DNA of 64,000 nt. It comes from Xylanibacter rarus (GTDB taxonomy: Bacteria > Bacteroidota > Bacteroidia > Bacteroidales > Bacteroidaceae). The stretch covers positions 186,001 through 250,000 of the forward strand of contig NZ_LFQU01000002.1 of assembly GCF_001275135.1 (NCBI RefSeq), read 5' to 3'. Positions 21,691-64,000 of the stretch are shown piece by piece. The notes under the pieces were generated by a model, which was not told where the DNA came from, did not search any database, and saw only the letters and a list, made by a program, of their open reading frames with translations. The number at the start of each line of letters is the position of its first letter. Position 1 is the stretch's first letter. The position numbers were made by a program, and so were the translations under genes.

Positions 21691-21941
21691 GGCTTCGCCT
21701 CGGCACTGCAAACTTAAAAAACTATGTCTTTCATTTTGCAGTGCACTCGGCTTGCACTATCTTTAAATAATATAGGCGGCGCCTCAACACTGCAAACTTA
21801 AAAAAACTGCGTCTTTCATTTTGCCATGCACTCGGCTTGCACTATCTTTGAATAATATAGGCGGCGCCTCGGCACTGCAAACTTAAAAAACTGCGTCTTT
21901 CATTTTGCCATGCACTCGGCTTGCACTATCTTTGCACTAAA
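21691..21941 (+). repeat. Three tandem copies of an 84-85 bp unit, each carrying the same promoter
   Basis: Units begin at 21691, 21775 and 21860 with GGC(T/G)(T/G)CGCCTC and run through GCACTGCAAACTTAAAAAA and CATTTTGC to the -7 box. The first promoter copy ends TATCTTTA (21758-21765) and is probably weakened; the second (TTTG 21820-21823, TATCTTTG 21843-21850) and third are intact. All keep the 19-bp spacer. Confidence 0.8.
21904..21934 (+). promoter_or_regulatory. Proximal promoter of the HAD hydrolase gene
   Basis: TTTG (21904-21907), 19 bp, TATCTTTG (21927-21934), full consensus; leader of about 27 nt. Confidence 0.8.
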
Positions 21942-47520: not shown

Positions 47521-48405
47521 CTACGCCTTCGGTTTCGTGCGGTAGGCGCGCGGACTCATGCCCATTATCTTGCTGAAAAGGCGCGAGAAGTAATACGGGT
47601 CGTCCATGCCGAGCTTGTGGCATATCTGGTTCATGCGCATCTGCGTGGTGTCGAGCAGCAGGCAGGCACGCTGAATTTTCAGCAGGTTGATGTAGTTTAG
47701 CGGACTGTGCCCCGTCTTCGCCTTGAACAGCATGGAGAAATGCGACGCCGAATAGCCCGTGAAGTCGGCCACCTCCTGCAGCGTCATGTGGCGCTCTATG
47801 TTCTCTTTCATATAATGTATGGCTGCCTCCACCACGTTACCTTCGTCTATCTTCTCGCCCGCGCTGCGGTATTGGTGAACATAGCGGAGCGAGGCAAGAT
47901 AGTGGTGAAAGAGCGACATGGCGTAGCGGATGTTCTCTATGCTGTAGCCCGAATTGAGCGTCTCAAACAGCTCCTCGAACATGTTTATGCGGTTGCTGAT
48001 GCGCGAGTGTATGCCGGGATTCACCGACGTGGGGGCTATGGCGTCGGCGGCATAGTGCGGGGCGAGCACGCCCTTGAAGTGGATCCAGTAGATAGTCCAC
48101 GGCTCTTCGGCGTCTGCCTGATATCTGTGGGGCACTCCTGCGGGCAGTATAAAATACTGGTTGGCCGACACCTCATAGCTGTTGCCGCCCACCTCGTAGC
48201 TTCCGCGGCCGTCGATGCAATAGATAAACACATACTGGTCTATTGGTTCGCGGCGCTCGCGGTAGTGGTTTTCGGCCTTGGGATAATAGCCTATGTCGGT
48301 AACGTAGAGCACCGATACGATGGCGTCAGCTGCCATCATGTCGGTAACCATCTTGGGCAGCACAAGCGAGCGCTCGCCCGAAAATCCGCTCTTTATTCTA
48401 AGCAT
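47521..48405 (-). CDS. AraC-family transcriptional regulator with cupin-like sensor domain
   Basis: I start at ATG 48405 (MLRIKSGFSGERS, 294 residues) because the longer frame (48450) would pass the probable promoter. Residues 40-150 form an AraC-binding cupin-like domain (YVFIYCIDGRGSYEVGG, YFILPAGVPHRYQADAEEPW). The C-terminal 100 residues hold the two HTH motifs (LQEVADFTGYSASHFSMLFK and MNQICHKLGMDDPYYFSRLF). Such proteins bind a sugar and activate nearby genes. It diverges from the sugar porter gene at 48732, with back-to-back -7 boxes between them, and therefore most likely regulates the porter and the DUF5107/TPR gene. Confidence 0.9.
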   Translation of the reverse strand: MLRIKSGFSGERSLVLPKMVTDMMAADAIVSVLYVTDIGYYPKAENHYRERREPIDQYVFIYCIDGRGSYEVGGNSYEVSANQYFILPAGVPHRYQADAEEPWTIYWIHFKGVLAPHYAADAIAPTSVNPGIHSRISNRINMFEELFETLNSGYSIENIRYAMSLFHHYLASLRYVHQYRSAGEKIDEGNVVEAAIHYMKENIERHMTLQEVADFTGYSASHFSMLFKAKTGHSPLNYINLLKIQRACLLLDTTQMRMNQICHKLGMDDPYYFSRLFSKIMGMSPRAYRTKPKA

Positions 48406-48432
48406 GGCGTCAAACGGTGATAGACTATGATG

Positions 48433-48440
48433 CAAATATA
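48433..48440 (-). promoter_or_regulatory. -7 box of the AraC-family gene
   Basis: CAAATATA (plus strand) is TATATTTG on the minus strand, a TAnnTTTG match; leader about 25 nt. Confidence 0.5.
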
Positions 48441-48486
48441 CTGAAAACAATAATAAGATTGTCCATTTTATTCTGATTTTTTTCTA

Positions 48487-48517
48487 TTTTTTATATTCTA
48501 TAATGTCCGTAACTTTG
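48487..48517 (+). promoter_or_regulatory. Promoter of the sugar porter gene
   Basis: TAACTTTG (48510-48517) is a full -7 match; TTTT (48487-48490) lies 19 bp upstream. The leader would be about 207 nt. The 48406-48731 divergent gap has no other gene. Confidence 0.6.
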
Positions 48518-48731
48518 CGCTGTCAAACAATATAGCGGGCAACGGCGGCCGGCGGCACAAATAATAAGATAATAAAAAAACGCCGTAAAAAGGCTGCGGA
48601 ATGCATGACAACAGACAAGCTGCAGCCAATAAGAAAACGGCATGACGGGCACACGGAGGGCAACAAACATTGCCGGAAGTCGGCGCCATGGGAATATAGA
48701 AGAATGTCAAACTAAAAACCATAAGCAACCT

Positions 48732-50102
48732 ATGAAAACGTTTAACAAGGGTTTTGTATATTTTATCTGCATCGTCTCGGCCATGGGCGGACTGCTGTTC
48801 GGCTACGACTGGGTGGTGATAGGCGGCGCCAAGCCGTTCTACGAAGTGTATTTCAACATTGCCGACGACCCTCAGATGCAGGGTCTTGCCATGAGCATAG
48901 CCCTCGTGGGATGCCTCACGGGAGCCATGACCGCCGGCAGTCTTGCCGACCGCTTCGGCCGCAAAAAGCTGCTCATCGCCTCGTCAGTGGTGTTCCTGCT
49001 GTCTGCCTACGGCACGGGATACTTCAGCCATTTCAGCTATTTTCTGGCGGCGCGCTTCCTCAGCGGCGTGGGCATAGGCATGGCTTCGGGCCTCTCGCCA
49101 ATGTATATTGCCGAGGTGGCACCGTCGCACATACGCGGCAAACTGGTGTCGCTCAACCAGCTGACGATAGTGATAGGCATCCTGGCGGCACAGATAACCA
49201 ACTGGCTGATAGCCGAACCCGTGGTGCACAACACCATTGACACATGGAACTGCCAAACGGGATGGCGCTGGATGTTCTGGGCAGGAGCCTTCCCGGCGCT
49301 TGCCTTCCTCATCCTTGTGTTCTTCATTCCGGAGAGTCCGCGCTGGCTTGCCATGAAGGGCGACAACAGCAGCGCACGCGACATACTTGCACGCATAGGC
49401 GGCGAGAGCTATGCCGACGAGGAGCTGTGGGCCATATCTGCCGCAGCACAGGCCGACAACAAGCAGTACGGACTGCGCACGCTGTTCCGCCGTCCGCTCG
49501 TCAGGATAGTCATAATAGGCATCGTGGTGGCTGTGTTCCAGCAGTGGAGCGGCACCAACGTGATATTCAACTACGCCCAGGAGATATTCCAGTCGGCAGG
49601 CTATTCGCTCAGCGACGTGCTGTTCAACATCGTCGTAACGGGCGTCATCAACGTTATATTCACCATCGTAGCCATATTCACCGTCGAGCGCCTCGGCCGC
49701 CGCAAGCTGATGCTTATAGGCGCATGCGGACTGGCAATAATATATCTGGTGCTGGGCACATGCTATTATTTCGAGATAAAGGGCGTGCTGATGGTTGCAC
49801 TGGTGGTGTCGGCCATAGCCTGCTATGCCATGACTCTCGGCCCCGTGGCATGGGTGCTGATAGCCGAACTGTTTCCGAGCCGCGTCAGGGCAGTTGCCGT
49901 GGGCACATGCACCTTTGCGCTGTGGACGGGCAGCACCACGCTGACCTACACCTTCCCGCTGCTCAACAGCTCGCTCGGCAGCTACGGCACGTTCTGGATT
50001 TATGCCGCAATATGCGCCGCAGGCTTCGTCTACTTCATGCGCGTGCTGCCCGAAACGAAGGGCAAGTCGCTCGAGGAGATAGAGAAGGAGCTTACCAGAT
50101 GA
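48732..50102 (+). CDS. Sugar porter of the major facilitator superfamily
   Basis: Starting at ATG 48732 (MKTFNKGFVYFICIVSAMGG), the 456-residue protein has twelve predicted helices and the sugar porter signatures: GGLLFGYDWVVIGGA in helix 1, DRFGRKK between helices 2 and 3, PESPRWL after helix 6, VERLGRRKL between helices 8 and 9, and PETKGKSLEEIE at the end. It imports a monosaccharide, probably with protons, across the inner membrane. The upstream frame to 48642 is leader. The gene is divergent from the AraC regulator and 152 bp before the DUF5107/TPR gene. Which sugar it carries is not evident; xylose, arabinose, galactose and fucose are all possible. Confidence 0.92.
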   Translation: MKTFNKGFVYFICIVSAMGGLLFGYDWVVIGGAKPFYEVYFNIADDPQMQGLAMSIALVGCLTGAMTAGSLADRFGRKKLLIASSVVFLLSAYGTGYFSHFSYFLAARFLSGVGIGMASGLSPMYIAEVAPSHIRGKLVSLNQLTIVIGILAAQITNWLIAEPVVHNTIDTWNCQTGWRWMFWAGAFPALAFLILVFFIPESPRWLAMKGDNSSARDILARIGGESYADEELWAISAAAQADNKQYGLRTLFRRPLVRIVIIGIVVAVFQQWSGTNVIFNYAQEIFQSAGYSLSDVLFNIVVTGVINVIFTIVAIFTVERLGRRKLMLIGACGLAIIYLVLGTCYYFEIKGVLMVALVVSAIACYAMTLGPVAWVLIAELFPSRVRAVAVGTCTFALWTGSTTLTYTFPLLNSSLGSYGTFWIYAAICAAGFVYFMRVLPETKGKSLEEIEKELTR

Positions 50103-50254
50103 CGCCGCAACAGGGCGCCTGCCGCGCCCCACTGGGCATGAAGCGGCCATGGACATGACCGCAGGCAGACTTTATCGCATGCATGACATACAGCCACAAA
50201 CATTGCTGCAAAAGAAAAAACAAGAACAAATAACATAACAAAGGATTAAGAAAA

Positions 50255-53200
50255 ATGGTAAAAGCATGGAGAGAAAAGGTGGTGATACCTACCTACGAAG
50301 TGGGCTCACCTGAGAAAAATCCTATCTTTCTTGAAAAGAGAGTGTATCAGGGTTCGAGCGGAGTGGTTTATCCATATCCCGTGATCGAGTCGATTGCCGA
50401 CGAGAAAACCGACAAGGAATATGAGGTTGTCTTCATTGAGAACGAATATATAAAGGTGATGATTCTGCCCGAACTGGGCGGACGCGTGCAGATGGCTTAC
50501 GACAAGATACGCCAGCGCCACTTTATCTACTACAACCACGTGATAAAGCCGGCACTGGTGGGTCTGGCAGGCCCCTGGATTTCGGGAGGCATCGAGTTCA
50601 ACTGGCCGCAGCATCACCGCCCCAGCACCTACATGCCCGTTGACACGGCCATAGAGCACAACAGCGACGGCAGCGTGACGGTGTGGGTGAGCGAGATGGA
50701 GCGCATGTTCCATCAGAAGGGCATGGCAGGATTCACTCTGAGGCCGGGACATGCCTATCTTGAGATAAAGGGCGCTGTGTATAACCGCACCGACGTGCCG
50801 CAGACGTTCCTGTGGTGGGCAAACCCTGCCGTAGCCGTTAACGACCATTACCAGAGCGTGTTCCCGCCAGACATCAACGCGGTGTTCGACCACGGAAAGC
50901 GCGCCGTAAGCTCGTTCCCGATAGCAACGGGCACATATTACAAGATGGACTATTCGGCAGGAGTAGACATCTCTAACTATAAGAACATCTTTGTGCCCAC
51001 GAGCTACATGGCCGTTAACAGCAAGTATGACTTTGAGGGCGGCTACGAGAACGACACGAAGGCCGGAGTGCTGCACGTGGCAAACCACCACATCTCGCCC
51101 GGAAAGAAGCAGTGGACTTGGGGCAACGGCGACTTCGGACGCGCATGGGACCGCAACCTGACCGACACCGACGGCCCTTACATTGAGCTTATGGCAGGCG
51201 TGTACACCGAGAATCAGCCCGACTTCACATGGCTTCAGCCCTATGAGGAGAAGTCGTTTGTGCAGTATTTCCTGCCCTACCGCGAGCTGGGCGTGGTGAA
51301 GAACGCCACTAAAGACCTGCTGATGAACATCGATCAGGACGGCAAGTCGGGCAAGGTGAACTTCAAGATATTTGCCACATCGGAGCAGCACGTATGCGTC
51401 GAGCTGCGCAACGACGACGGAACGGTGTATTACAGCAAGGAGGTTACGATAACGCCTGAGAACATCATGGAGGAGAATGTGGACGTGAAGGGCGCCAAGC
51501 TCAGTCAGCTCAACCTCAGCATAACAGCCGGCGGACGCACGCTGCTGACATGGCACAGCGAGCCCGACGAGGTAAGACCTATACCCGACGCAGCCGAAGC
51601 TGCCCTGCTGCCCGAGGAGATAAAGACCACGGAGCAGCTCTATCTGACAGGTCTGCACCTTGAGCAATACCGCCACGCCACATACAACCCCGTCGACTAC
51701 TACGAAGAGGCTCTGCGCCGCGACCCGCTTGACGTGAGAAACAACAACGCCCTCGGTCTGTGGTACATCCGCAAGGGGCGCTTTGAGCGTGCAGAGAAGT
51801 ATCTGCGCACGGCTGTCAGGGTGCTGATGAAGCGCAACCCCAACCCGTACGACGGAGAACCGATATACAACCTCGGACTGGCGCTGAAGTATCAGGGACG
51901 CACAGACGAGGCCTACGACCAGTTCTACAAGTCGACATGGAACGGCGCATGGCAGGATGCGGGCTATTTTGCCTGCGCGCAGATATCTCTGATGCGCAAC
52001 TGCCTGACTGACGCCATGGACGAGATAGACCGCTCGCTGATACGCAACTGGCACAACCACAAGGCGCGCGCGCTGAAAACGACCATACTGCGCAAGGCGG
52101 GACGCAACGACGAGGCTCTGAAACTGATTGAGGAGTCGCTCGGGATAGACAGATTCAACTACGGCTGTCTGTTTGAGAAATATATCATAACTGGCGACGA
52201 CGACACGCTGCAGCTGCTGAAGACGATGATGAGACGATGCGCCAACAACTACGACGAGATAGCGCTCGACTACTGCGCGGCAGGCTGCGCCTGCGAGGCG
52301 CTGAAGCTGTGGAGCATAGCAATAGAAGAGGGAGCACTGACGCCGATGACATACTACTATATGGGCTGGTGCAACGCCGCAACCGACGCCGAGGCAGCCA
52401 AAGAGCTGTTTGCCAAGGCAGAGGCATATCCTTCTGACTACTGCTTCCCCAACCGTCTCGAAGCCGTGCTCGCGCTAAACTGCGCCATGGCATATCTGCC
52501 CCAGGCATCCAAGGCACCTTACTATCTGGGCTGCCTCTACTACGACAAGCGGCAGTATGACCTTGCGATAAAGGCATGGGAAAGATCGGCCGCAGCCGAC
52601 GACAAGTTCCCCACTGTGTGGCGCAATCTTGCCCTGGCTGCGTTCAACAAGCAGGGCGACAAGGACAAGGCCGTGAGACTAATGGAGAAGGCTTTTGCGC
52701 TTGACAACACCGACGCCCGCGTGCTCATGGAGCTCGACCAGCTATATAAATGCGTACGCCGTCCTCACGCCGAGCGTCTCGCTCTGCTAAGAAAATACGG
52801 CAACCTCGTTGCCAGGCGCGACGACCTGCTGCTCGAGGAGATAACCCTGCTCAACCAGACAGGACAGTATGAGGAGGCAAAGGCAAAGCTCGACGCCCAC
52901 ATATTCCACCCCTGGGAGGGCGGCGAAGGCAAGGTGCCGGCACAATATCAGTTTGCACGCGTCGAACTGGCAAAGAAGGCCATAGCCGAAGGACGACATG
53001 CCGACGCCGTGAGCCTGCTCGAAGAGTGCCTCACATATCCTCATCATCTCGGCGAAGGCAAGCTGCACGGAGCGCAGGAGAACGACTTCTACTATCTGAT
53101 GGGCGTGGCATACGACGCCATGGGACAGACCGACAAGGCACGCCAGTGCTGGCTGAAGGCAACCGAAGGCCCCACAGAGCCTGCCGCAGCGCTCTACTAC

Positions 53201-53533
53201 AACGACGCAAAGCCCGACAAGATATTCTATCAGGGCATGGCGCTGCTCAAGCTGGGCCGCACGGGCGAGGCCAACGGCCGCTTCCACAAGCTGGTGAACT
53301 ATGGCGAGAAGCATCTCTTCGACAAGGTAAGGATGGACTATTTCGCCGTCTCCCTGCCCGACCTCCTGATATGGGAAGACGACCTGCAGGTGCGCAACGA
53401 GATTCACTGCAAATACATGATGGCACTGGGCTACTGCGGACTCGGCAACAAGGACAAGAGCATGCGCTATCTTGGCGAGGCCGAAGCCCTGGACATCAAT
53501 CATCAGGGAATACAGGCATTCAAGACTTTATAA
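50255..53533 (+). CDS. DUF5107 and tetratricopeptide-repeat protein of unknown function
   Basis: The 1092-residue protein has no signal peptide. Residues 1-400 match the DUF5107 domain, a beta-rich mutarotase-like fold (EVVFIENEYIKVMILPELGG, GPWISGGIEFNWPQHHRPST, WWANPAVAVNDHYQSVFPPD, WTWGNGDFGRAWDRNLTD). Residues 480-1090 are TPR-type helix pairs (NNNALGLWYIRKGRFERAEK, YNLGLALKYQGRTDEAYDQF and others). Sequence and neighbours suggest a cytoplasmic carbohydrate-active protein: it follows a sugar porter, and an aldose 1-epimerase gene is next on the opposite strand. Conserved acidic and aromatic residues in the first domain would suit a glycosidase or epimerase, but I know of no proven activity. 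An intrinsic terminator follows at 53574. Confidence 0.85.
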   Translation: MVKAWREKVVIPTYEVGSPEKNPIFLEKRVYQGSSGVVYPYPVIESIADEKTDKEYEVVFIENEYIKVMILPELGGRVQMAYDKIRQRHFIYYNHVIKPALVGLAGPWISGGIEFNWPQHHRPSTYMPVDTAIEHNSDGSVTVWVSEMERMFHQKGMAGFTLRPGHAYLEIKGAVYNRTDVPQTFLWWANPAVAVNDHYQSVFPPDINAVFDHGKRAVSSFPIATGTYYKMDYSAGVDISNYKNIFVPTSYMAVNSKYDFEGGYENDTKAGVLHVANHHISPGKKQWTWGNGDFGRAWDRNLTDTDGPYIELMAGVYTENQPDFTWLQPYEEKSFVQYFLPYRELGVVKNATKDLLMNIDQDGKSGKVNFKIFATSEQHVCVELRNDDGTVYYSKEVTITPENIMEENVDVKGAKLSQLNLSITAGGRTLLTWHSEPDEVRPIPDAAEAALLPEEIKTTEQLYLTGLHLEQYRHATYNPVDYYEEALRRDPLDVRNNNALGLWYIRKGRFERAEKYLRTAVRVLMKRNPNPYDGEPIYNLGLALKYQGRTDEAYDQFYKSTWNGAWQDAGYFACAQISLMRNCLTDAMDEIDRSLIRNWHNHKARALKTTILRKAGRNDEALKLIEESLGIDRFNYGCLFEKYIITGDDDTLQLLKTMMRRCANNYDEIALDYCAAGCACEALKLWSIAIEEGALTPMTYYYMGWCNAATDAEAAKELFAKAEAYPSDYCFPNRLEAVLALNCAMAYLPQASKAPYYLGCLYYDKRQYDLAIKAWERSAAADDKFPTVWRNLALAAFNKQGDKDKAVRLMEKAFALDNTDARVLMELDQLYKCVRRPHAERLALLRKYGNLVARRDDLLLEEITLLNQTGQYEEAKAKLDAHIFHPWEGGEGKVPAQYQFARVELAKKAIAEGRHADAVSLLEECLTYPHHLGEGKLHGAQENDFYYLMGVAYDAMGQTDKARQCWLKATEGPTEPAAALYYNDAKPDKIFYQGMALLKLGRTGEANGRFHKLVNYGEKHLFDKVRMDYFAVSLPDLLIWEDDLQVRNEIHCKYMMALGYCGLGNKDKSMRYLGEAEALDINHQGIQAFKTL

Positions 53534-53573
53534 TTAATTTGTCTGTTGTTAACAAAACATGTTTTAATTACAG

Positions 53574-53609
53574 ATGCGGCGGGGCTGTGACAGTTCTGCC
53601 GCATTTTTT
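53574..53609 (+). terminator. Terminator of the DUF5107/TPR gene
   Basis: ATGCGGC (53574-53580) pairs with GCCGCAT (53598-53604), extended inside by G-U pairs and CTG/CAG, and is followed by TTTTT. Confidence 0.85.
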
Positions 53610-53639
53610 ATGCCGTCATGAAGTGAGCCGCCTGCAGTG

Positions 53640-53760
53640 CTGCTGATAAGGCATCGGCATACGGCTCGACATAAGGCGGCATATTGCAAGACGAAACGCG
53701 GCCTTTAACACGCCGGAAAGCCACGTTTTGCGAGCTAAAACGCCATATTTTACATTGTAA
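53640..53760. repeat. Degenerate intergenic repeat of the GCAAAAG family
   Basis: The stretch contains alternating words such as TATTGCAAGACGAAAC, TTTTGCGAGCTAAAACG and TTTTACATTGTAA, which look like decayed versions of the palindromic repeats at 10.1 and 15.4 kb. The gap 53534-53969 has no gene. Confidence 0.4.
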
Positions 53761-53896
53761 TTAAAATGGAAGGATTTTGTGTCGGTCAGTAATTTTTCTA
53801 TACATCCAATAAGCATTTTGTCAGAACAATAGACACTTTTGCTTACATATTTTAAAGCTATAAATACACGTAGGCAAAGGCCTTCACCGCAGAGCA

Positions 53897-53936
53897 ACAA
53901 AAAAACGCGCCCCGAAAGCCTATGGCAGGGGCGCGC
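53897..53936 (-). terminator. Terminator of the aldose 1-epimerase gene
   Basis: CGCGCCCC (53906-53913) pairs with GGGGCGCG (53928-53935); on the minus strand the stem is followed by TTTTTTTGTT. Confidence 0.85.
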
Positions 53937-53969
53937 TCCACGGTTGAAAACAAACCATGTTACTACTCT

Positions 53970-55022
53970 CTAACAATTAATCGAAAATGCGTATTTAATC
54001 ACATGGCGGTATGTCTCGCCCGGCATCAGCATCTGGCACGGCAGTGAAGGATGGTTGGGAGCGTCGGGAGCACCCTGACACTCAATGGCCACGCCGTCGT
54101 GGTCGGCATACCTTCGGCCGCTCTTGCCCACGGGCAGGTTGTCGGCAAGCCAGTTGCCCGTGTAGAGCATGGCTCCGCACTGTGTGGAGTAGACGCTCAG
54201 ACGGCGGCGGCTCTCATCGTCGTCGAGCACAGCCACGAGCCTCAGCCGGCCGTCGCCGTTCCATCCGTCTACGAAGAAGAAGTGGTTGTATCCCTTGCCC
54301 GTCCTCATGTTGCTGAAGTCGGCACCTATGTCCCTGCCCAGCGCCTTGGCCTGCAGAAAGTCCATCGGAGTGCCCTCCACCGGCTCTATGCTTCCCAGCG
54401 GAATGTCCGTGACGTCGGCAGGCAGCCATCTGTGGCAGTTAAGCCTGAGCCGCTGACCCAGGCACGAGCCCGAGCCTTCGCCCGCAAGGTTGAAGTAGGC
54501 ATGGTTGGTAAGATTGACAATGGTGGGCCTGTCGGCCGTTGCCTCATAGCTAATGGTCAGCTCGTTATCGTCGTTCCACACATAGTCAACCGCCACGTCC
54601 ATGGCTCCCGGATATCCCTCCTCGCCGTCGGCGGCATGATACGTGAACCTTACGCCGCCGTCATGAGGCTCGGCACCCCATATCACGTTGTGAAATCCGT
54701 CGTTGCCCCCGTGCAGCGCGTTGGGCGGATTGTTGATAGCCAACTGATACTCGTCCCTGCCTATGCTGAACCTGCCGCGCGCAATGCGGTTGGCATATCG
54801 TCCGGGCGTCTTTCCGGCGCATGCGCTGTCGTAGAGATAGTCGGCAGGCCGGGCATATCCCAGCACCACGTCGTCTATCCGTCCGCGTGCGTCGGGCACC
54901 CTTATAGCCGTGATGCCCGCGCCAAGCGACGACAGAGCAGCCTCGCAGCCCTGCGAGTTGACAAGGCGGAACACCCTGAACGTGCCCTTTGCCGAGCTTA
55001 TATCGTTGCTTAATATATCCAT
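53970..55022 (-). CDS. galM: Aldose 1-epimerase (galactose mutarotase)
   Basis: Starting at ATG 55022 (MDILSNDISSAKGTFRVF), the 350-residue cytoplasmic protein has the mutarotase beta-sandwich with the expected active-site positions: NPPNALHGGNDGFHN (substrate His), VNLTNHAYFNLAG (catalytic His), VEGTPMDF and a C-terminal VAIECQG that carries the catalytic Glu. It interconverts alpha and beta anomers of galactose or related aldoses. The start is decided by the promoter: a full -33/-7 pair lies at 55035-55065, so the upstream in-frame ATG at 55064 would not be transcribed. It lies tail to tail with the DUF5107/TPR gene, separated by two terminators, and is probably functionally tied to the sugar porter module. 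Confidence 0.92.
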   Translation of the reverse strand: MDILSNDISSAKGTFRVFRLVNSQGCEAALSSLGAGITAIRVPDARGRIDDVVLGYARPADYLYDSACAGKTPGRYANRIARGRFSIGRDEYQLAINNPPNALHGGNDGFHNVIWGAEPHDGGVRFTYHAADGEEGYPGAMDVAVDYVWNDDNELTISYEATADRPTIVNLTNHAYFNLAGEGSGSCLGQRLRLNCHRWLPADVTDIPLGSIEPVEGTPMDFLQAKALGRDIGADFSNMRTGKGYNHFFFVDGWNGDGRLRLVAVLDDDESRRRLSVYSTQCGAMLYTGNWLADNLPVGKSGRRYADHDGVAIECQGAPDAPNHPSLPCQMLMPGETYRHVIKYAFSINC

Positions 55023-55034
55023 CTTTTTTGCATG

Positions 55035-55065
55035 CAAAGTTAGCATCATGCGGCCGAAGGACAAA
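55035..55065 (-). promoter_or_regulatory. Promoter of galM, giving an almost leaderless message
   Basis: On the minus strand TTTG (55062-55065), 19 bp, TAACTTTG (55035-55042). A start 4-8 nt after the box leaves only about 5-9 nt before the ATG at 55022. Confidence 0.75.
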
Positions 55066-55170
55066 GCACGCGCATGTCAGAAAATGTAAATTATTCGTCA
55101 AAACGCCTGCCTGCGCCCTTATTTTCGGCAGAAAATAACAAGTGTTACGGCCAACATCATAAAGCATATC

Positions 55171-55202
55171 TTTGCTTTTATGGTAAAAAAATATTATTTT
55201 TG
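55171..55202 (+). promoter_or_regulatory. Promoter of the exported protein/CHAT cluster
   Basis: TTTG (55171-55174), 20 bp, TATTTTTG (55195-55202) fits the consensus. The -33 TTTG is itself the end of another -7-like box, TATCTTTG (55167-55174). The leader from the main promoter is about 45 nt. Confidence 0.65.
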
Positions 55203-55251
55203 CCAAAACGATTAACAATATATTATCACACAATCTAAAATCATTCACAAC

Positions 55252-56409
55252 ATGAATATTAAACATTCAGCAGCGTCGGCAGCATATCTTATTCTGGCAT
55301 TCATGGCCATATGGCTTGCACCGACTGAGACAAAAGCACAAGTAACCTACGAGACATTCATATACACGAGCGACGCCCTGAGCAGCGAGATACAGGACCT
55401 GAGCAACGAGCGCGCTGCCCGCGGAGGCTACATGGCCGACCTGGGCATGGCCATGGCAAACGCCGGAAAGGGCATTGCCGGGGGATACGTGACGAGCTTC
55501 ATCGACATGGGCGTCAACGCCATAGCATCGCTCATAACAAGACCTTCGCGACTGAAGAACGAATGGGAGGAGACGGTTAAGGCCGAGAGCACCTTTGAGA
55601 CCAAGTTCGGCACGGTGAGCGAGCTCAACGACTTTTATTCGGTGCCGTCGACAGACGGGGCGATGGACCCGCGCGGCATGCGCTTCAACGGCATAGGATG
55701 CCTGCGCCGCGGCGAGAAAGGCGACACCGTGTTCTACATATCATGCCACGTGGACCACAGCAAGCTCTACCGCATAGTGAACCACTCTAAGTTTGAGCTG
55801 GTGCTCGACACGCTCATACTATGCCCGAAGGAGTCTAACCTGCCCAACTCATCGCTGCCCCTGCCCTTCTATTTCAGCGAGCGCGGCAGCTATCAGATAG
55901 ACATGACCATGACGCTTACATCGTCGTGGATAAACGAGCTGACCGTGCTTCAGAAAGACAAGGAGCTGGGACGCTTCGAGCTGACCGTGCCCATCGACTC
56001 GTCGCAGGTGGCGGCCGACGGCAAATATCGCTACGTTCGCGGACGCAGCAAGGGCTCGCCACTGGTGATAAAGGGCGAGAGCTTCATCGTGCCGCGCTCG
56101 TTCATGGCATACCGCGACGAGAACGACCAGTATCACAACAGCTGGGGAACGGGCGAATACAAGATGTCTGTAACGCTGAAGGAGAGCTGCGACGTAACCG
56201 ACGAATACCGCGACGAATGGAGAAACGACCGCAAGCGCCGCAAGAAACTGACGCCGAAGGAGGGCTGGACCGACAACGTATGGAAGGTGATAGAGTCGCA
56301 GAAATGGGACGAGATATCAAAGCAATGGGTGATAACCACGCTGAGCGCACCTGCCGACATGATAACGGGCGACATAATAGACAAGCTCGACCTGACACCC
56401 GACAAATAG
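55252..56409 (+). CDS. Exported protein of unknown function, first gene of the CHAT cluster
   Basis: The 385-residue protein has a signal peptide with likely cleavage after TKA (ATG 55252, mature QVTYETFIYTSD). The first 90 mature residues are helical with a glycine/alanine-rich amphipathic stretch (MADLGMAMANAGKGIAGG) that could touch a membrane. The rest is beta-rich (FYISCHVDHSKLYRIVNH, LPLPFYFSERGSYQIDMTMT, RYVRGRSKGSPLVIKGESF) and charged, with an RNDRKRRKKL patch near the end. I recognise no known domain. It begins the plus-strand cluster behind a consensus promoter and precedes the first CHAT gene by 103 bp without a terminator, so the two are probably co-expressed. It could be a partner, target or pore-like component, which is speculation. 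Confidence 0.7.
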   Translation: MNIKHSAASAAYLILAFMAIWLAPTETKAQVTYETFIYTSDALSSEIQDLSNERAARGGYMADLGMAMANAGKGIAGGYVTSFIDMGVNAIASLITRPSRLKNEWEETVKAESTFETKFGTVSELNDFYSVPSTDGAMDPRGMRFNGIGCLRRGEKGDTVFYISCHVDHSKLYRIVNHSKFELVLDTLILCPKESNLPNSSLPLPFYFSERGSYQIDMTMTLTSSWINELTVLQKDKELGRFELTVPIDSSQVAADGKYRYVRGRSKGSPLVIKGESFIVPRSFMAYRDENDQYHNSWGTGEYKMSVTLKESCDVTDEYRDEWRNDRKRRKKLTPKEGWTDNVWKVIESQKWDEISKQWVITTLSAPADMITGDIIDKLDLTPDK

Positions 56410-56512
56410 CAACAGGCACATGCCTAAAGCCGGGAGGACGGATGGACAAGGCGCAGGCACGACATCAACAGGCACCCGGCAACGGCTGGACAACAATAAC
56501 ATAAAACGGCTT

Positions 56513-59500
56513 ATGAAACCACTGTTATGTCTATTTATACTTATGTCGCTTCTTGCCGCGCCGACGCATGCCGGCAAGACCTATGCTGCGGCAGCAAGCC
56601 ACGCCGCACACAGGGCCGCCGCACAGCAGGATGACGACAAGGCAAGGAGCGAAGCCATAACCTACATATTGGCCCACCGCAAATGGGCGGCTGCCAACGT
56701 AGACACGGCATTTGCCACAGACGCCGACCTGCTGAGGGCTGCCGCCGACGCCGCTGCCACGCTGTCGCGCGAGCCGGCATACACGGCAGTGCTGCGCAAG
56801 GCCGCAGCACTGGTGCCCGCACTTGCCGCATATGCATCATTCAGACAGACCGACAGCCTTGACCATGCCGACAGGCGCAAGACCGAAGCCCTCGAGGCCA
56901 TAGCCCTGGCAGCACAGAAGACAGTGCCGCAAAGGCCCAACGTGGAGGCAAGGGCAAGATACCACATAGCCGTAATATCCGTGCAGACCGACGCAGGCCG
57001 CGCATACAGCTCGATATGCGACGCCTGCAGGCTGGCAGAAAAGAGCCGCGGCGGAATAAGCAAGGACAGGATTACGGCCGAAACAATGCTCTACAACGCC
57101 ACACGACTCTTCATAAAAGCCAACTACACCGAGGGCGACTCTCCGCTGCTGTATGCCGAAGAGAGCAGGCTCGAGCACGATTTTCTCAGATACTTCAGAG
57201 GACGCAAGGGCACGGCAGACGACGCACTGACCATGTCGATGCTTGCCATGATAAGGCAGGGGCGCGGCTTCGGGCGCGAGTCTGACGAAGCCGACGTGGC
57301 AGAATTCGGCGGCAGCAGACCGGCAGAACTGCCCGACAGCGTGGCAACGGCCGAATGGCTCTTGGGCAGATACTACGTGAAAGAAGCCTTCAGGATAGCA
57401 TCGGGAGCGTTGGGATACAGCCATCCCGACGTGATGTCAATGCGGCTTATGACGCTTGCAGCCGGCTCGCCGTGCTTCGACAGCATGTTCGTCTACGCCC
57501 TTGCCTACTGGCCGCTGGGCACACCGATGCTATGCGACGTCAAGATAGCCAAATGGACTACAGCCCTTAACGAGGGGACAGACGTGTCGGAAAGCAGAAA
57601 ATACGCCACATATCTGAAATATTACCGCAACTATTACGGCGAAGACAGCAGGGCGTATGCCGACATGCTGCAGCAGGTGGCGCTGATAAGACTCATGGAC
57701 AACATAGCCGACGGACAGGCAGGCGACGGCTCGCAGCTGGTTGAGCTCTACATAAAACTGATGAACCGGACAGGCAGATGCGACGACAGATACATCGATG
57801 CGTGCGACGGATTCATGACGCTGGCATCGCTGGTAGACCCGAAGATATATCTCCGCCTGTCTGAAGAGATAATGAAATGTTATGCCGAAAGGAGCACGCA
57901 GCCCAGCTGGACGCGCGTGGCAACAGGCGGAAAGATAGCCACACGACTTGCACAGAACGCCGAACACGACAAGGCGCTCGACATGCAGCGCAAGACGGTG
58001 GACGAGGCAACGATGCTGCCCGGAACCATAGGACGCAGATATGAAGCCAAGGCACGATACGACCTGGCAGTGCTATACGGCAGCAGCGGACAGCCCGCCG
58101 ACTCGGCAACGGTGGACAGCTGCTGGCAGGCAGCACTGAAAACCTACGGCGAGGCAAGGCTCGAAAAGTTTATGCCGGCCATGAGCTATGCCGTGCATCT
58201 CGCTGACGAATACCGGCTCGACGATGCCGCCGGCGTGGTGACAAAGCTGATAAAGGACGACGGCAAGACCATGCGCAAGGCATATCTGGCAAGCGCCCGC
58301 ACCCTGCTCGGACGCATAAGGATGATGCAGGGCAAGAACGACAGGAAGACAAGGCGACTGTTTGAGTCGGCAGCCGAGCCGCTGCTGACAGACACCGCAC
58401 AGCTGCCGTCGCTCGCCGTAAACGGATATCTGTATCTCAGCGCATGGCACATCAGCGAGAACAGGCCCGACTCTGCCGAATTCTACCTTCAGCGAGGATA
58501 CCTCCTGGCAAAGAAGATAACCGACATTTCGCCCGGATTTTATCTCAACTTCTCAAAGAATCTTTACACTCTTTACATGGCTCTCGGACAAGACCACAAG
58601 GCTGAGGAGCTGAACGAGAGCATGATAGAGGAGCTTGAGAGAGACAACCTGCAGGGCACCACGACATATCTCGACTGCATGTGGAACCGCGTGGACATAA
58701 CGCGGCTGAGGACTCCGGGCAACCTCAACAAGATTTTCACGCAGTGCACGGGCATAATATCGCCCACATTCCTCGTATATAAAAGGGGCAACTACAACAA
58801 GGACATAAAGTATTCGTATGTGTTAAGACTGCTCACAAACATTGTAACCAACGGCACCAGACTGTATGCTACCACACCCGCTGCGGCGGAACAGCAGGAC
58901 GGAGCCGGAAACTCGCGCGAATACATAAGCAGCCAGCTGGGCGAACTGATACCGCAGCTGCTCGACATGGAACAGGGATATCCCGGCTTTGTGCAGGGTG
59001 CCGACTACCGTGTACTGCCCGAATACTATATGCTCATACAGGCTCTTGCCAACTATTACGGCATGGTAAGAGACACATCAAAGATCACTCACTACTACAG
59101 ACTGATGGCCGAAGCCGACTCGCTGTGCCACAGGCCGTGGACGGCGGCACAGAACATGGCAGGACTTTACGTCATGCGCGGCGACTTCAGGAGCGCGCTG
59201 CCCTACAACACCGAATGCTACAGGCAGCTTGACCGTTTCTCAATATTCGACCAGATACAGATAAGCCGCTGGCAGGCAGAGCTGTGCTATGCGCTCAACA
59301 GAGACGACGAAGCCGTGGAAGCGGCAGCCGGATACGCCGGTCAGATACGCAGATATGTGCTCTCAAACTTCGACTATCTTGGCTCTGACGAACGCGCGCA
59401 GTTTCTTGCCGACCACAGCACAAGCGGCCTGATGATCAACTGGATGCTGCCGCGCAAGAGCCGGGAGCTGGCAGCTCAGGCCTACGACGCAGCACTGTTT

Positions 59501-60922
59501 GACAAAGGTCTGCTGCTGCATTCGTGGGAACGCATACGCCGCTCGATAATACGCTCGGGCGACAATGCGCTGATATCTCAGCTCGACACGCTTGCACGCC
59601 TTAACGAAGCGGCACGCGCTCTCAACGCAGGAACAGGCGACACAGAGACGAGCAGGCAGCTGAGCGGCATACAGCAGCAGATAGAGCGCATAGAGAAGAG
59701 TCTGGCACGCAGCACCGAGGCCTACCGCACAGACACCATGAGAGTTGTGTCGTGGCAGGAGATAATAAAGGCACTCAGCCCCGGCGAGGCAGCCATAGAG
59801 TTTGTAGCCACCGACACGGCCATGGCTGCCCTCATAATAAAGCCCGGACTTGAACGTCCCGCTGCCGTGATGCTCAACGGTGCAAGACAGCTGACCGCGC
59901 TGCTCAGACAGACCGACTTCATGCCTGCCGAAACACGTGTGCGCAGACTCTACACCTTCGGAAGGTCAAAGCTCTACGACATAATATGGCGTCCGCTTGA
60001 GCAATATCTCGGCAACACGGCAACCGTATACTTCTCGCCCACAGGCGAACTTAACCGCATTGCCTTTGCCGCCATACCCGTATCGGCCGACAGCTGCCTC
60101 ATAGACAGATACGACCTGCGCCAGCTGTCTACCACGGCAAGACTCGTAAGCAGAGCCGGAAAGCACGACATAAAGACGGCAACCGTGTTCGGAGGCATCT
60201 ATTACAGCGACGGACAGGCCGCGCAGGCAGCAGGCAACGGCAGCAACAACACACGAGCAGCGATGCAGGAAGCCTTTGTATATCTTGACGAGACGCGACG
60301 CGAGACCGACGCCATAGCCCGATGCATGGCCAAAGCCGACATCAAGGCCGACACCATAACGGGCAGCAACGCCACCGAAACGGCATTCTACAAGCTCGAC
60401 GGACAGAGCACGGACATAATACATCTGGCCACGCACGGATTCTTCATAGACGGCTCAAAGGATGCCGACGAATATGCGTTCCTGCGCAACCATCCCGGCT
60501 CAAAGCACCACGCCATGCAGCGCACAGGACTTGCCTTCGTAGGCGCCAACGCCACATGGACGGGCGAACGCAAGCCCGACCGCGAGGACGGCATACTGAC
60601 CGCCAACGAACTGTCACTGCTCGACCTTGGCAACACCGACATGGCTGTGCTGTCGGCATGCGAGACGGCGCTGGGAAGCTACACCACCGAGGGCGTGTAC
60701 GGACTGCAGCGCGGATTTAAAGAGGCCGGCGTCAACACGCTGATGATGTCGCTATGGAACGTGAACGACCGCGCCACGGCGATATTCATGCAGGACTTCT
60801 ACAGGCTGTGGCTCGGCGGAATGACCAAGCGCGAGGCCTTCAGGACTGCCGTGAACAACATGAGACAGCAGCACCGCGAGCCGTTCTTCTGGGCTGCCTT
60901 CACCCTGCTTGACGCCGAATAA
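56513..60922 (+). CDS. Exported TPR-like CHAT-domain (caspase-like) protein, 1469 residues
   Basis: ATG 56513 opens a signal peptide (MKPLLCLFILMSLLAAPTHA). A longer frame to 56420 is less likely. Residues 25-1070 are a long helical, TPR-like solenoid. A C-terminal CHAT domain (about 1110-1469) carries the caspase-type dyad H1308 in IIHLATHGFF and C1383 in AVLSACETALG, with the usual GVYGLQRGFKEAGVNTLMMS and WNVNDRATAIFMQDFY. CHAT proteases cut protein targets after a signal received by their TPR part. Most described members are cytoplasmic, whereas this one has an export signal and would act in the periplasm or outside. No lipobox or T9SS tail is seen. It sits between two exported proteins of unknown function and is followed by a second CHAT gene. 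Confidence 0.88.
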   Translation: MKPLLCLFILMSLLAAPTHAGKTYAAAASHAAHRAAAQQDDDKARSEAITYILAHRKWAAANVDTAFATDADLLRAAADAAATLSREPAYTAVLRKAAALVPALAAYASFRQTDSLDHADRRKTEALEAIALAAQKTVPQRPNVEARARYHIAVISVQTDAGRAYSSICDACRLAEKSRGGISKDRITAETMLYNATRLFIKANYTEGDSPLLYAEESRLEHDFLRYFRGRKGTADDALTMSMLAMIRQGRGFGRESDEADVAEFGGSRPAELPDSVATAEWLLGRYYVKEAFRIASGALGYSHPDVMSMRLMTLAAGSPCFDSMFVYALAYWPLGTPMLCDVKIAKWTTALNEGTDVSESRKYATYLKYYRNYYGEDSRAYADMLQQVALIRLMDNIADGQAGDGSQLVELYIKLMNRTGRCDDRYIDACDGFMTLASLVDPKIYLRLSEEIMKCYAERSTQPSWTRVATGGKIATRLAQNAEHDKALDMQRKTVDEATMLPGTIGRRYEAKARYDLAVLYGSSGQPADSATVDSCWQAALKTYGEARLEKFMPAMSYAVHLADEYRLDDAAGVVTKLIKDDGKTMRKAYLASARTLLGRIRMMQGKNDRKTRRLFESAAEPLLTDTAQLPSLAVNGYLYLSAWHISENRPDSAEFYLQRGYLLAKKITDISPGFYLNFSKNLYTLYMALGQDHKAEELNESMIEELERDNLQGTTTYLDCMWNRVDITRLRTPGNLNKIFTQCTGIISPTFLVYKRGNYNKDIKYSYVLRLLTNIVTNGTRLYATTPAAAEQQDGAGNSREYISSQLGELIPQLLDMEQGYPGFVQGADYRVLPEYYMLIQALANYYGMVRDTSKITHYYRLMAEADSLCHRPWTAAQNMAGLYVMRGDFRSALPYNTECYRQLDRFSIFDQIQISRWQAELCYALNRDDEAVEAAAGYAGQIRRYVLSNFDYLGSDERAQFLADHSTSGLMINWMLPRKSRELAAQAYDAALFDKGLLLHSWERIRRSIIRSGDNALISQLDTLARLNEAARALNAGTGDTETSRQLSGIQQQIERIEKSLARSTEAYRTDTMRVVSWQEIIKALSPGEAAIEFVATDTAMAALIIKPGLERPAAVMLNGARQLTALLRQTDFMPAETRVRRLYTFGRSKLYDIIWRPLEQYLGNTATVYFSPTGELNRIAFAAIPVSADSCLIDRYDLRQLSTTARLVSRAGKHDIKTATVFGGIYYSDGQAAQAAGNGSNNTRAAMQEAFVYLDETRRETDAIARCMAKADIKADTITGSNATETAFYKLDGQSTDIIHLATHGFFIDGSKDADEYAFLRNHPGSKHHAMQRTGLAFVGANATWTGERKPDREDGILTANELSLLDLGNTDMAVLSACETALGSYTTEGVYGLQRGFKEAGVNTLMMSLWNVNDRATAIFMQDFYRLWLGGMTKREAFRTAVNNMRQQHREPFFWAAFTLLDAE

Positions 60923-61019
60923 GGCCGCTCCGACCCGACGGCACCTCCGACAGAGACAAGGGGAAAGACAGCAGAAAAGACGTGAATGAACATTGACTGA
61001 CAACTAAAATATTACTGAC

Positions 61020-61634
61020 ATGAGAAAAATATTATTGCTTGTGCTTGCCGTATGTGCATCGGCCATACATGCGCAAAACACAACCGAACTGATGATGAAG
61101 GCCGAAAAGGCGTGCATGATGATACGCGACGCCGTGACGGCACGCTCTGCCGACAACGTGATGGCGGGCATGGAGATGATAAGCGAGATACCGTTCAGCG
61201 AACTGACGCTAAGCTCTGTCGACACCAAGAGCGCCGTGCCGATGCGCGGACATCTGCAATATAACGTTGAATATCTTGACGAACTGCTGCTGAAAAACCT
61301 CGACATGGGACTCATAGAGGTTGAAGACGCCTACAAGATGAGGGCAACGAGCGCTCCGCTAAGATGCACCCACCGCGCCGTGGCGGCAGGCGGCAGCGTA
61401 ACTTACTCGATGATGGCGCAGGGCGAACAGCAGCTGATGGTGGTGCCCGAGTGCGGAGGCAAAGTGAATCTCTACGTAGACGACAAGGGCAGCGGCCGCA
61501 AACTGGCAGACAAGGCCGACGGAGGCAAGGACTGCTGCACGCTCAACTGGACGATAGAACGTGCCGGCGAGCTGGTGATTACCGTGGAGAACAAGTCGGA
61601 CAAAGACCTGAGCTTTATCATCGTGTCCAACTGA
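61020..61634 (+). CDS. Small exported protein between two CHAT genes
   Basis: The 204-residue protein has a signal peptide (MRKILLLVLAVCASAIHAQ), a helical segment rich in methionine (about 25-65: LMMKAEKACMMIRDA, then VMAGMEMISEIPF) and a beta-rich C-terminal half (about 110-204: CTHRAVAAGGSVTYSMMAQ, GKVNLYVDDKGSGRKLADKA, ELVITVENKSDKDLSFII) that resembles small pre-peptidase C-terminal/jelly-roll-like modules. I cannot assign a family. It starts 97 bp after the first CHAT gene with no promoter or strong terminator in between, and precedes the second CHAT gene by 242 bp. A role as regulator or substrate of the CHAT proteins is inference from position. Confidence 0.72.
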   Translation: MRKILLLVLAVCASAIHAQNTTELMMKAEKACMMIRDAVTARSADNVMAGMEMISEIPFSELTLSSVDTKSAVPMRGHLQYNVEYLDELLLKNLDMGLIEVEDAYKMRATSAPLRCTHRAVAAGGSVTYSMMAQGEQQLMVVPECGGKVNLYVDDKGSGRKLADKADGGKDCCTLNWTIERAGELVITVENKSDKDLSFIIVSN

Positions 61635-61876
61635 ACAGCCCCAGGCAGCTAAAGGCATCAGACAAGCTGAAACGGCCGAAGCGGCATGACAAGCCATAAA
61701 TTAGGCTCATCAAGCCCTGAAAGGTTATCAGAGAGCATGCTGTTTTGTCTGTTTGCGTATCGGTGCTTCCATCCGGATTATCACCACATATTCGGGTTAA
61801 GGCCAAAAATCCAGCTGCCGCAATATTATTTATACATGTTTTCTTAATTCTTAATTTTTAATTCCTGATTATCATC

Positions 61877-64000
61877 GTGTTTCGTTTTCTTGCATTATTG
61901 ATATTATCAGCCGCTGCCGCCACGGCAGAAGGACAGACGGTGGCAACGCTGCTCAGGGCCGACTCGCTGCGCAACGCGGGGAGCTATGCCGAGGCTATTG
62001 AAGCCTACCGTGAGGTGAACGACAAGAAAGGCATACCCGGATCGTGGCGGCTAAGGGCGCTGACGGGCATGGCCACGTGCAACAGACAGACGGGAAACTA
62101 TCGCGAGGCGCTCGAAAACTACCGCACAATTGACAGCAAAGGACTGCTCGACGTGCGCGGAAAACTGAACATGAGCAACCTGTATCTCACTCTCGGACTA
62201 TACGCCGACGCCGTAGACCTGCTCGAGCCGCTCAACGCCACGATAGGTCAGGACACACGGCTGATAAACCTTGCATCGGCGTATGCATATCTCGGACGCG
62301 GCGGCGACGCCCTGCAGCTGCTCGCCACGGCACCGACCGACGGCATGAGCGCAGAGCAGAAGGCCACGCTGACGGCCAACCGCGGATTTATAGAGATGTC
62401 GCTCGGACAGCACGAAGCGGCTGCGGCATCGCTCGGCAAGGCTGCAGGCATGCTGGCAGAGGGAGCCGGACGATACATCGTGATGGCAAACCTGGCGCTG
62501 GCTGAGAGCGGATGCGGACACGCTGACAAAGCCCTGGCGCACATAGACTCGTGCCTGACATGGCAGAAAACAAACCTCGGAGAGAAGCATCCCGACTATG
62601 CGATAAGCGTAAGAAAGCGTGCCGAAATTCTGCTGAAAGCTGGACGGAAGGATGAAGCGGCGGAGTGGTTTAAGACGTATTTCGGCCTTATGCGCAACTA
62701 TGTGTGCCGCTCGTTTGCCTTCCTTACCGACAAGCAGCGGCAGGACTTCTGGTTCAGCAACGAACCGCTTGTAACCGAATGTTACGCCACCGAGGCAGCC
62801 GACCCGCAGCTGCTCTACGACGTGGCGCTCTTCTCCAAGTGTCTTCTGCTGCAGGTTGAGCGCAACATAGAGGCCGAGGCACGGCGCGACACATCTGCAT
62901 CGAGGCTTTATGACAGCATAGCATCACTGAGGCGTGAGGCCGACAAGGGCAGCTCTGACGCACGGCAGCGCGACTCGCTCTACGCCGAAGCCGACAGGCA
63001 GGAGCAGAGACTGATGGCCATGATGGACGGATACAGGAGCTTCAACGCCAACATGAGGCTGACATCGGCCGACATAGCGCGGCGGCTGGGGCGCAACGAG
63101 ACGGCAATAGAGTTTATAAGATACGGCAGCACATCGGCGCGACGCTATGCCGCACTGACTCTTGACGGCACTGGCAAGGTGGGCTTCGTGCCGCTGTGGA
63201 CAGAAGACAGTCTGCGCAACTTCAGACTGACCGACGGCCGAACGCTCAACGAGGCGATGAACTCGATGCGCGCTGCCGACAAGAACGCCATATACACCGA
63301 CACTAAGCTTAGCTCTATGATATGGTCGAAGCTGAAACCGCTGCTGACTAAGCGCGGACGGATATACTTCGCGCCCGACGGTCTGCTGCATCTGCTTGCC
63401 ATAGAGAACATGACCGACGCCATGAACGGCAGCGACGTGTGCCGCCTCAGTTCTACGCGCGAGCTTGCCAATGACGACAAAGACATCAGGGGAAAAGCAC
63501 TGATAATGGGCGGAGTGAGCTACGACGAATGCGACGCAAAGACCCAGGACGACGCCACAGCAGCGCCCGACCGCAGCGCAAGCAGCATACTCTCTGCCCT
63601 GCATCTGCCGCCCGCAGCCAACGGAGCCTACGCCTATCTGCCCGCCACGGCGGCAGAGGCTGACACCATAAGGAGCATGATAGAAAAAGGCAACGGCATA
63701 AAGGCTGAATGCATAAAAGGCACGCAGGCCACCGAAACGGCCTTCAAGCTCGCCGCCCCGTCGTGCTCAATGATACATCTTGCCACCCACGGCTTCTGCT
63801 TTGCCGACACCGACAGGCCCGAGCCGCTGGCGTTCTGCCGCGACAGTCTGCGCGAAGACGACACGATGAGCCGCAGCGGACTGGTGTTTGCTGGTGCCAA
63901 CCGCATGGTGCAGCCGGCATACAGCGCCTACGACGACGGCATACTGCTGGCACGCGAAGCCTCAGAGATGCGCCTCGACAGGGCAGCCCTCGTAGTGCTG
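61877..64000 (+). CDS. Second exported TPR-CHAT protein (partial, runs off the window)
   Basis: A frame beginning with GTG at 61877 stays open for 708 codons to the last base. GTG is chosen because it opens a signal peptide (MFRFLALLILSAAAATAEGQ); the only nearby ATG (61836) is followed at once by a stop. Residues 22-260 are clear tetratricopeptide repeats (SYAEAIEAYREVNDKKG, NYREALENYRTI, LGLYADAVDLLEPL). A helical linker follows, and a CHAT domain begins near residue 430 with RRLGRNETAIEFIRYG. The catalytic histidine is H638 in MIHLATHGFCF. The window ends at RAALVVL, directly before the expected SACxT cysteine motif. The sequence ATETAFKL before the histidine is shared with the first CHAT protein (ATETAFYKL), so the two are paralogues. 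Confidence 0.85.
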   Translation, partial: MFRFLALLILSAAAATAEGQTVATLLRADSLRNAGSYAEAIEAYREVNDKKGIPGSWRLRALTGMATCNRQTGNYREALENYRTIDSKGLLDVRGKLNMSNLYLTLGLYADAVDLLEPLNATIGQDTRLINLASAYAYLGRGGDALQLLATAPTDGMSAEQKATLTANRGFIEMSLGQHEAAAASLGKAAGMLAEGAGRYIVMANLALAESGCGHADKALAHIDSCLTWQKTNLGEKHPDYAISVRKRAEILLKAGRKDEAAEWFKTYFGLMRNYVCRSFAFLTDKQRQDFWFSNEPLVTECYATEAADPQLLYDVALFSKCLLLQVERNIEAEARRDTSASRLYDSIASLRREADKGSSDARQRDSLYAEADRQEQRLMAMMDGYRSFNANMRLTSADIARRLGRNETAIEFIRYGSTSARRYAALTLDGTGKVGFVPLWTEDSLRNFRLTDGRTLNEAMNSMRAADKNAIYTDTKLSSMIWSKLKPLLTKRGRIYFAPDGLLHLLAIENMTDAMNGSDVCRLSSTRELANDDKDIRGKALIMGGVSYDECDAKTQDDATAAPDRSASSILSALHLPPAANGAYAYLPATAAEADTIRSMIEKGNGIKAECIKGTQATETAFKLAAPSCSMIHLATHGFCFADTDRPEPLAFCRDSLREDDTMSRSGLVFAGANRMVQPAYSAYDDGILLAREASEMRLDRAALVVL

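Follow-up and report, generated by a model that had tools for sequence, protein, structure and literature searches.

A family of predicted exported proteins encoded beside CHAT and C14 caspase-like proteases in Bacteroidales

A four-gene cluster in Xylanibacter rarus

The stretch of DNA analysed here, called the window below, is 64,000 nucleotides long and comes from the gut bacterium Xylanibacter rarus (assembly GCF_001275135.1, contig NZ_LFQU01000002.1, positions 186001-250000). Near its end lies a cluster of four genes on the + strand, which follow a single promoter in the order U385, CHAT1, U204 and CHAT2 (Table 1). The stop codon of CHAT2 falls beyond the window, at contig position 250378 (window 64378), and the contig itself ends 340 bp further, at 250718 (window 64718). 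The promoter matches the pattern TTTG-N20-TAnnTTTG, found 7 times in the whole window versus 0.26 expected by chance. Between 55000 and 64000, five terminator-like sites were detected for 9.8 expected, all of them on the - strand and none on the + strand. The four genes on one strand, the sizes of the first three products, the single promoter and the lack of a notable terminator had all been described in an initial annotation of the window, and were confirmed. A single transcript for the four genes is likely, but it is not established, because a gap of 242 bp precedes CHAT2.

Table 1. Features of the cluster (window coordinates)
Feature	Position	Strand	Description
Promoter	55171-55202	+	Bacteroidetes-type, TTTG-N20-TAnnTTTG; pattern search of the window
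U385	55252-56409	+	Predicted exported, 385 aa; partner protein, member of an unnamed family
Arg57-Gly58 of U385	55420-55425	+	Candidate cleavage site; alignment column
CHAT1	56513-60922	+	Predicted exported, 1469 aa; CHAT protease, H1308, C1383, D1419
U204	61020-61634	+	Predicted exported, 204 aa; partner of the CHAT2 subfamily
CHAT2	61877-64000, on contig to 64378	+	Predicted exported, 833 aa; TPR-CHAT protease

The N-termini of all four products resemble signal peptides, both by eye and by a crude rule. Applied to the relatives described below, this rule was positive for 86 of 95 U385 proteins and 87 of 102 CHAT proteins, versus 226 of 710 other open reading frames (ORFs) of more than 300 aa. 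Export calls in this work thus come from sequence inspection and a home-made rule rather than from a trained predictor, and the four-gene set is predicted to be extracytoplasmic, which supports, as a prediction, the location first proposed for it.

The CHAT proteases

Both proteases matched the Pfam CHAT domain (PF12770, curated cut-off 24 bits), CHAT1 at 2.4e-55 and 188.5 bits, CHAT2 at 6.3e-47 and 160.8 bits. The His and Cys of CHAT1 are exactly those given by the initial annotation. For CHAT2, that annotation had named in advance the second cysteine as one of the points on which its reading could fail. The dyad is intact: H638 is encoded inside the window (63788-63790), and the codon of C711 begins 7 nt beyond it, at 64007. 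The label TPR-CHAT, originally given to both proteins, holds for CHAT2, where Pfam detects TPRs; CHAT1 had no TPR match in Pfam, and its residues ahead of the CHAT domain match no family. Searches of the PDB with the CHAT1 and CHAT2 sequences gave nothing useful, and a CHAT profile found there a single, insignificant CHAT chain (8tl0, E 0.21).

An alignment of 106 CHAT proteins was made from 111 distinct ORFs, minus 6 truncated or short ones, plus a third CHAT of the X. rarus genome. The His, the Cys and the Asp of a W.V.D motif were invariant in 106 of 106, both window genes included, and for this reason the aligned CHATs look like active enzymes. A role of this Asp as an S1 residue, by analogy with separase, was considered and dropped, as an alignment to separase could not be shown.

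The third CHAT of the genome, also predicted to be exported, is encoded on contig 27 (L033:2605-9106) and is ~40% identical to CHAT1. Neither U385 nor U204 adjoins it, and the gene downstream encodes a TPR-membrane-AraC-type regulator. In a sample of relatives, 19 of 60 genomes had a CHAT match. Two genomes stood out, G019 with 11 matches and G051 with 12, scattered over many contigs. One of the G019 genes (L044) is adjoined by a U204 gene, and no U385 match was found in the search of this genome, an absence that is soft, as genome searches score only the first few candidates per genome.

The U385 family

Neither Pfam, NCBIfam nor PADLOC gave a match for U385, and its best PDB hit was not significant (E 2.6). 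Searching Pfam with 17 aligned members of its family gave no match either. The family is recognised by a signal sequence, an R-G pair, and a core with the motifs FY...DP, W, G.F, VPRS and G.G.Y, all of which are present in the window protein.

Within the genus, 35 of 398 genomes gave a U385 match. U385 relatives are encoded by 157 stretches of the GTDB collection, and the best 80 of these were used. Among these 80, the titles name groups of Bacteroidales, except for L147 (bacterium) and L171 (Bacteroidetes), the Candidatus genera being counted in this order. The closest relative of the window protein in these 80 is 77% identical and belongs to an uncultured Prevotella (L117). Pooling genus and GTDB loci and dropping identical copies, as judged on the last 150 residues, left 97 distinct U385 ORFs. 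Two shorter than 340 aa were set aside, and the remaining 95 make up the census below. No U385 match was found in phage and plasmid collections (tblastn, E 1e-5), nor any PADLOC match among the four window proteins, so that mobile or catalogued defence cargo finds no support.

U385 genes lie beside CHAT genes

A CHAT gene is located within 300 bp of U385 in 78 of the 95 distinct members, and within 6 kb in 89. Among the 78 close pairs, 76 are on the same strand, with CHAT downstream in 48 and upstream in 28. Recurrence of the neighbours beside homologous CHAT genes in related genomes, which the initial annotation had anticipated, is thereby borne out. The gap widens to 743-793 bp in four loci (L120, L122, L123 and L126), and in L120 and L126 it is occupied by one gene, whose product of 224-236 aa is exported or lipoprotein-like in appearance.

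Remote members lie beside C14 caspase genes

Beyond the genus, a U385 match was found in 7 of 393 genomes of the order and in 2 of 395 of the phylum, the window's own genome being counted. Six of the other matching genomes encode remote relatives, five of which show, on visual inspection, a Cys like that of lipoproteins. A profile made of the six remote members alone recovered the window U385 at 3.2e-39. In the class (365 genomes) the same profile detected ten more remote members, and in the phylum (345 genomes) only one member, which was already known. The core common to U385 and the remote members spans about 200 residues.

In 8 of the 16 remote loci (L198, L199, L201, L202, L204, L205, L210 and L212), an exported C14 caspase gene lies within 300 bp on the same strand. 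L200 and L203 have one further off, within 2.8 kb, which brings the total to 10 of 16. In L206 the protease gene is a CHAT, which lies on the opposite strand at a distance of 1.2 kb, and in the stretch examined no protease gene was found for L207, L208 and L209 (one genus code), L211 and L213 (contig end). C14 genes are sparse in the 16 genomes concerned (71 matches in about 62 Mb), and we therefore estimate that well under one C14 neighbour would be expected by chance. CHAT and C14 are separate families within one clan of caspase-like proteases. We conclude that one exported family tracks two branches of caspase-like protease, and this double association is the strongest evidence that U385 works with a protease.

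U204 and CHAT2, a probable second pair

For U204, 19 of 25 distinct genes have a CHAT gene at most 60 bp downstream, the distance to CHAT2 in the window being 242 bp. In L119 the locus ends within the next gene, and four more distant U204-like genes (L107, L111, L114 and L115) are not adjacent to a CHAT gene on its upstream side. This census is not independent of the preceding one, because nearly all loci were chosen for their U385. Pfam gave no match for U204. Four of 19 aligned members match the PPC domain, U204 itself not being one of them; the 19 include the four distant ones just named, one of which matches PPC alone.

A quick tree of CHAT proteins was built on 83 rows, retained out of 121 after dropping those more than 72% identical; its branches are long and 32 of its 80 forks are weak. 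CHAT2 falls in a group of 18 rows with a support of 99, of which 17 are linked to U204 and one (L113) is cut at a contig start. CHAT1 belongs to a five-row group (support 98) that also contains the third X. rarus CHAT. As far as these sequences tell, U204 accompanies the CHAT2 subfamily. When rows were labelled by the presence of U385 within 1 kb, 16 changes were needed on the tree versus 24.8 in shuffles, and none of 500 shuffles was as low. This means that adjacency to U385 is clustered on the CHAT tree, yet was gained or lost several times.

The full four-gene order was found again in L117 and in L193, from Caecibacteroides pullorum AN421. In L102 the two pairs are in the reverse order, and in L119 an additional CHAT gene stands between them. 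The alternation of genes had been read from the start as suggesting that each CHAT is paired with one of the two other proteins. Two such pairs, U385 with CHAT1 and U204 with CHAT2, are well supported, since each pair occurs without the other and L102 has the opposite order.

A conserved arginine in the N-terminal part of U385

An alignment of 112 members (the 95 near ones, the 16 remote ones and L197) has a single column ahead of the core that stands out. It is an Arg in 107 of 112 members, and in the other five, the window U385 among them, the R-G pair is offset by 1-2 residues. The 40 most conserved columns of this alignment (lowest 0.86) include no other one ahead of W105, a region that the remote members partly lack. 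Sets A1 and A3, which are divergent, have no residue before W105 conserved at 90% or more other than the Arg.

Among the 95 near members, the Arg is followed by Gly in 76 cases, by Ser in 10, by another Arg in 8 and by Ala in one. These were picked with a pattern (R, then G, S, R or A, in a 40-residue stretch), so that 95 of 95 is obtained by construction, and the column count above is the actual test. The stretch after the Arg is rich in Gly and Ala and mildly hydrophobic, with a mean best 19-residue window of 1.20 on the Kyte-Doolittle scale. An acidic residue at P4, as for separase, was also looked for: 48 of 95 members have a D or E at the third position ahead of the Arg, which is too weak to claim.

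Cleavage after a basic residue has precedents among related proteases. Orthocaspases cleave after positively charged residues (PMC6426788), separases after Arg (PMC4626109), and bacterial gasdermins (bGSDMs) are cleaved after Leu or Arg, the next Gly being essential in one that was tested (PMC9612521).

Larger related loci

Twelve loci are larger (L103-L107, L110, L111, L114, L115, L167, L172 and L197). Their U385 and CHAT genes have as neighbours, in this order, the genes of a protein of about 500 aa, of an FHA-like protein and of a kinase-like fragment accompanied by U204. L167 differs in having U385 on the opposite strand. The protein of about 500 aa had no Pfam match (L107). In the parts tested, the FHA-like protein has a trypsin-like Pfam domain that passes the cut-off in L104, L107 and L197 but falls short of it in L167, the FHA domain itself is below cut-off, and the kinase match passes in L107 and falls short in L114. 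A membrane stretch precedes the trypsin part of the FHA-like protein in the five loci examined. In L111, L114, L115, L172 and L197, a single protein joins the kinase-like fragment to U204 by way of a hydrophobic stretch, and such fusions would link cytoplasm and periplasm. TIR proteins are encoded nearby in five loci (L105, L107, L111, L186 and L197), and CHASE2 proteins, detected with Pfam, in three (L171, L186 and L200). The topology of the larger loci suggests that signals pass from the cytoplasm to proteases outside it. The window cluster itself has none of these additional parts.

Also beside larger loci, two proteins (L107:5237-7582 and L104:6714-9044) have a C-terminal RyR domain, by Pfam, and a hydrophobic N-terminal part.

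Possible roles of U385

That U385 and its protease act together appears very probable. The gene content, the intact catalytic residues, the recurrent pairing, the sharing of the partner family with C14 caspases and the conserved Arg are observed; for the manner in which the two proteins act, we infer export, cleavage, the cleavage site, activation and function, as follows. CHAT1 would be a caspase-like cysteine protease acting outside the cytoplasm, with the periplasm as its most likely location, and U385 would be its dedicated partner, most likely its substrate. In the resting state, a short N-terminal segment would keep U385 inactive. The large N-terminal part of CHAT1 would sense a trigger, or be bound by it, upon which the CHAT domain would cut U385 after the conserved Arg (R57), before the Gly, and free the mildly hydrophobic Gly/Ala-rich stretch together with the conserved core. 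CHAT2 and U204 would constitute a second, related pair. The reading that we favour, with slightly less than even confidence, is that CHAT1 cuts U385 at R57/G58 outside the cytoplasm and thereby releases or activates the core. A wider scheme can be drawn for the Bacteroidia, in which exported CHAT and C14 proteases would cut a shared family of exported executors at the R/G pair, and the larger loci would relay a signal outwards from TIR, kinase-like and FHA-like parts by way of membrane-spanning trypsin-like and U204 proteins. Such a periplasmic relay is quite unlikely as it stands; if it existed, it would be an extracytoplasmic counterpart of the caspase-gasdermin pair.

Several observations weigh against cleavage at the Arg. 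Six of the 95 U385 genes have no CHAT gene inside 6 kb (L121, L137, L149, L158, L173 and L184); two of these sit at contig ends (L137 and L173), and for L149 the downstream sequence is just 2.1 kb long. Conversely, CHAT genes often occur without U385, as only 3 of 21 CHAT matches adjoin it in 36 genomes of the genus. The stretch following the Arg exceeds the transmembrane threshold (1.6) in just 4 of 95 members, and a transmembrane helix after R-G was rejected as a general feature. The N-terminal part of U385 is not simply a free linker either, because in A2, a set of 78 closer relatives, Y38 and Y79 are invariant and several other N-terminal residues are conserved at 90% or more. Finally, the Arg may be structural, because it is kept in the five remote members that lack a nearby protease gene.

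These last two points fit another view, in which U385 and U204 would join the CHATs in one envelope complex, as structural subunits or as sensors of a ligand, neither cut nor inhibitory, and the Arg would hold the structure. The CHASE2 membrane sensors of three loci agree with such a complex, as do the five fusions in which U204 comes after a kinase-like part and a hydrophobic stretch, an arrangement that looks signal-passing. However, across the family the Arg is kept while its surroundings vary in kind and length, which is unusual for a structural residue, and we regard the complex as fairly unlikely. The main competitor of cleavage is a role of U385 as inhibitor or chaperone of exported caspase-like proteases, with the Arg in a bait loop that fills the S1 pocket and protects the envelope until the protease is needed. 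Bacterial exported proteases with a co-encoded inhibitor are known, the same pairing data speak for this role (CHAT within 300 bp in 78 of 95, C14 in 8 of 16), and an association with CHAT as well as C14 proteases is what one would expect of a protein that inhibits caspase-like proteases in general. On the other hand, the G019 genome, with its 11 CHAT matches and no U385 match, indicates that exported CHATs do not need U385, and the core shared with the remote members exceeds what a bait loop requires. Inhibition is thus somewhat unlikely in our view. The remaining explanation is housekeeping: CHAT1 and CHAT2 would be envelope maturation proteases, of the sort seen alone in many Bacteroidales, and their neighbours unrelated genes brought together by chance or shared regulation. 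Exported CHATs devoid of a U385 neighbour are indeed common in relatives, with a CHAT match in 19 of 60 genomes, and the third CHAT of this genome is one of them. But chance would not give a pairing that recurs across dozens of genomes, in two gene orders and with two protease families, which makes this explanation very improbable.

Relation to known systems

The best-studied bacterial caspase-like proteases belong to cytoplasmic defence systems such as those of bGSDMs and of Craspase, which cuts a partner protein, and to our knowledge little is known about the targets of exported ones. In bGSDM operons, a caspase-like protease (C14 or CHAT) is likewise encoded beside the protein that it activates (PMC9612521). 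The window products differ by their signal-like N-termini, U385 has no Pfam or PADLOC match (and none in Pfam for the 17 members), and its Arg is near the N-terminus, whereas the bGSDM cut site is about 20 residues from the C-terminus. The protease-activated pro-nucleases, among them the caspase-nuclease (canu) system, also consist of a protease and its partner, a pair that is coupled to several sensing systems unrelated to one another and that occurs with two kinds of protease (PMC12799240). The partner there is a DNA-cutting nuclease, whereas U385 has a signal sequence and no Pfam match to a nuclease (MBL-type). Craspase of type III-E CRISPR combines TPRs with a CHAT protease (PMC9729208, PMC9935389), but it is an RNA-guided complex, whereas the window proteins are signal-like and have no PADLOC match. 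No Cas7-11/gRAMP neighbour was seen by eye among the ORFs from 48000 to 64000, a CRISPR array not having been searched for.

A survey of prokaryotic metacaspases published in 2012 describes caspase homologs with an N-terminal helix, possibly a signal peptide, several homologs per operon in Bacteroidetes, and a CHASE2 fusion (PMC3501461); the excerpts of the survey name no U385-like partner. The trypsin-like and TIR domains of some U385 loci recall the peptidase effectors of NTP-dependent conflict systems (PMC7159879). The window cluster lacks these domains, and the main text of that study mentions neither CHAT nor RyR. CHAT proteins were also reported in a variable region of the Bacteroides fragilis type VI secretion system, where they were suggested to be immunity proteins (PMC11854122). 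Exported protease pairs with a partner of the U385 family were not found in searches of open-licence PMC papers; protease-partner pairs are of a known kind, and exported ones with this family are apparently new. For the exported CHAT and C14 proteases of many Bacteroidales, the U385 family marks what is likely to be their target and offers a single residue to test, and the presence of the four-gene order in a named strain, C. pullorum AN421, makes bench tests possible.

Other promoter matches in the window

Three of the promoter-pattern matches are nearly identical to one another, at 21327-21357 (-), 21820-21850 (+) and 21904-21934 (+), and share TTTGCCAT.CACTC..CTTGCACTATCTTTG. Two of the three are identical and in tandem, 84 bp apart, and one is in the opposite orientation.

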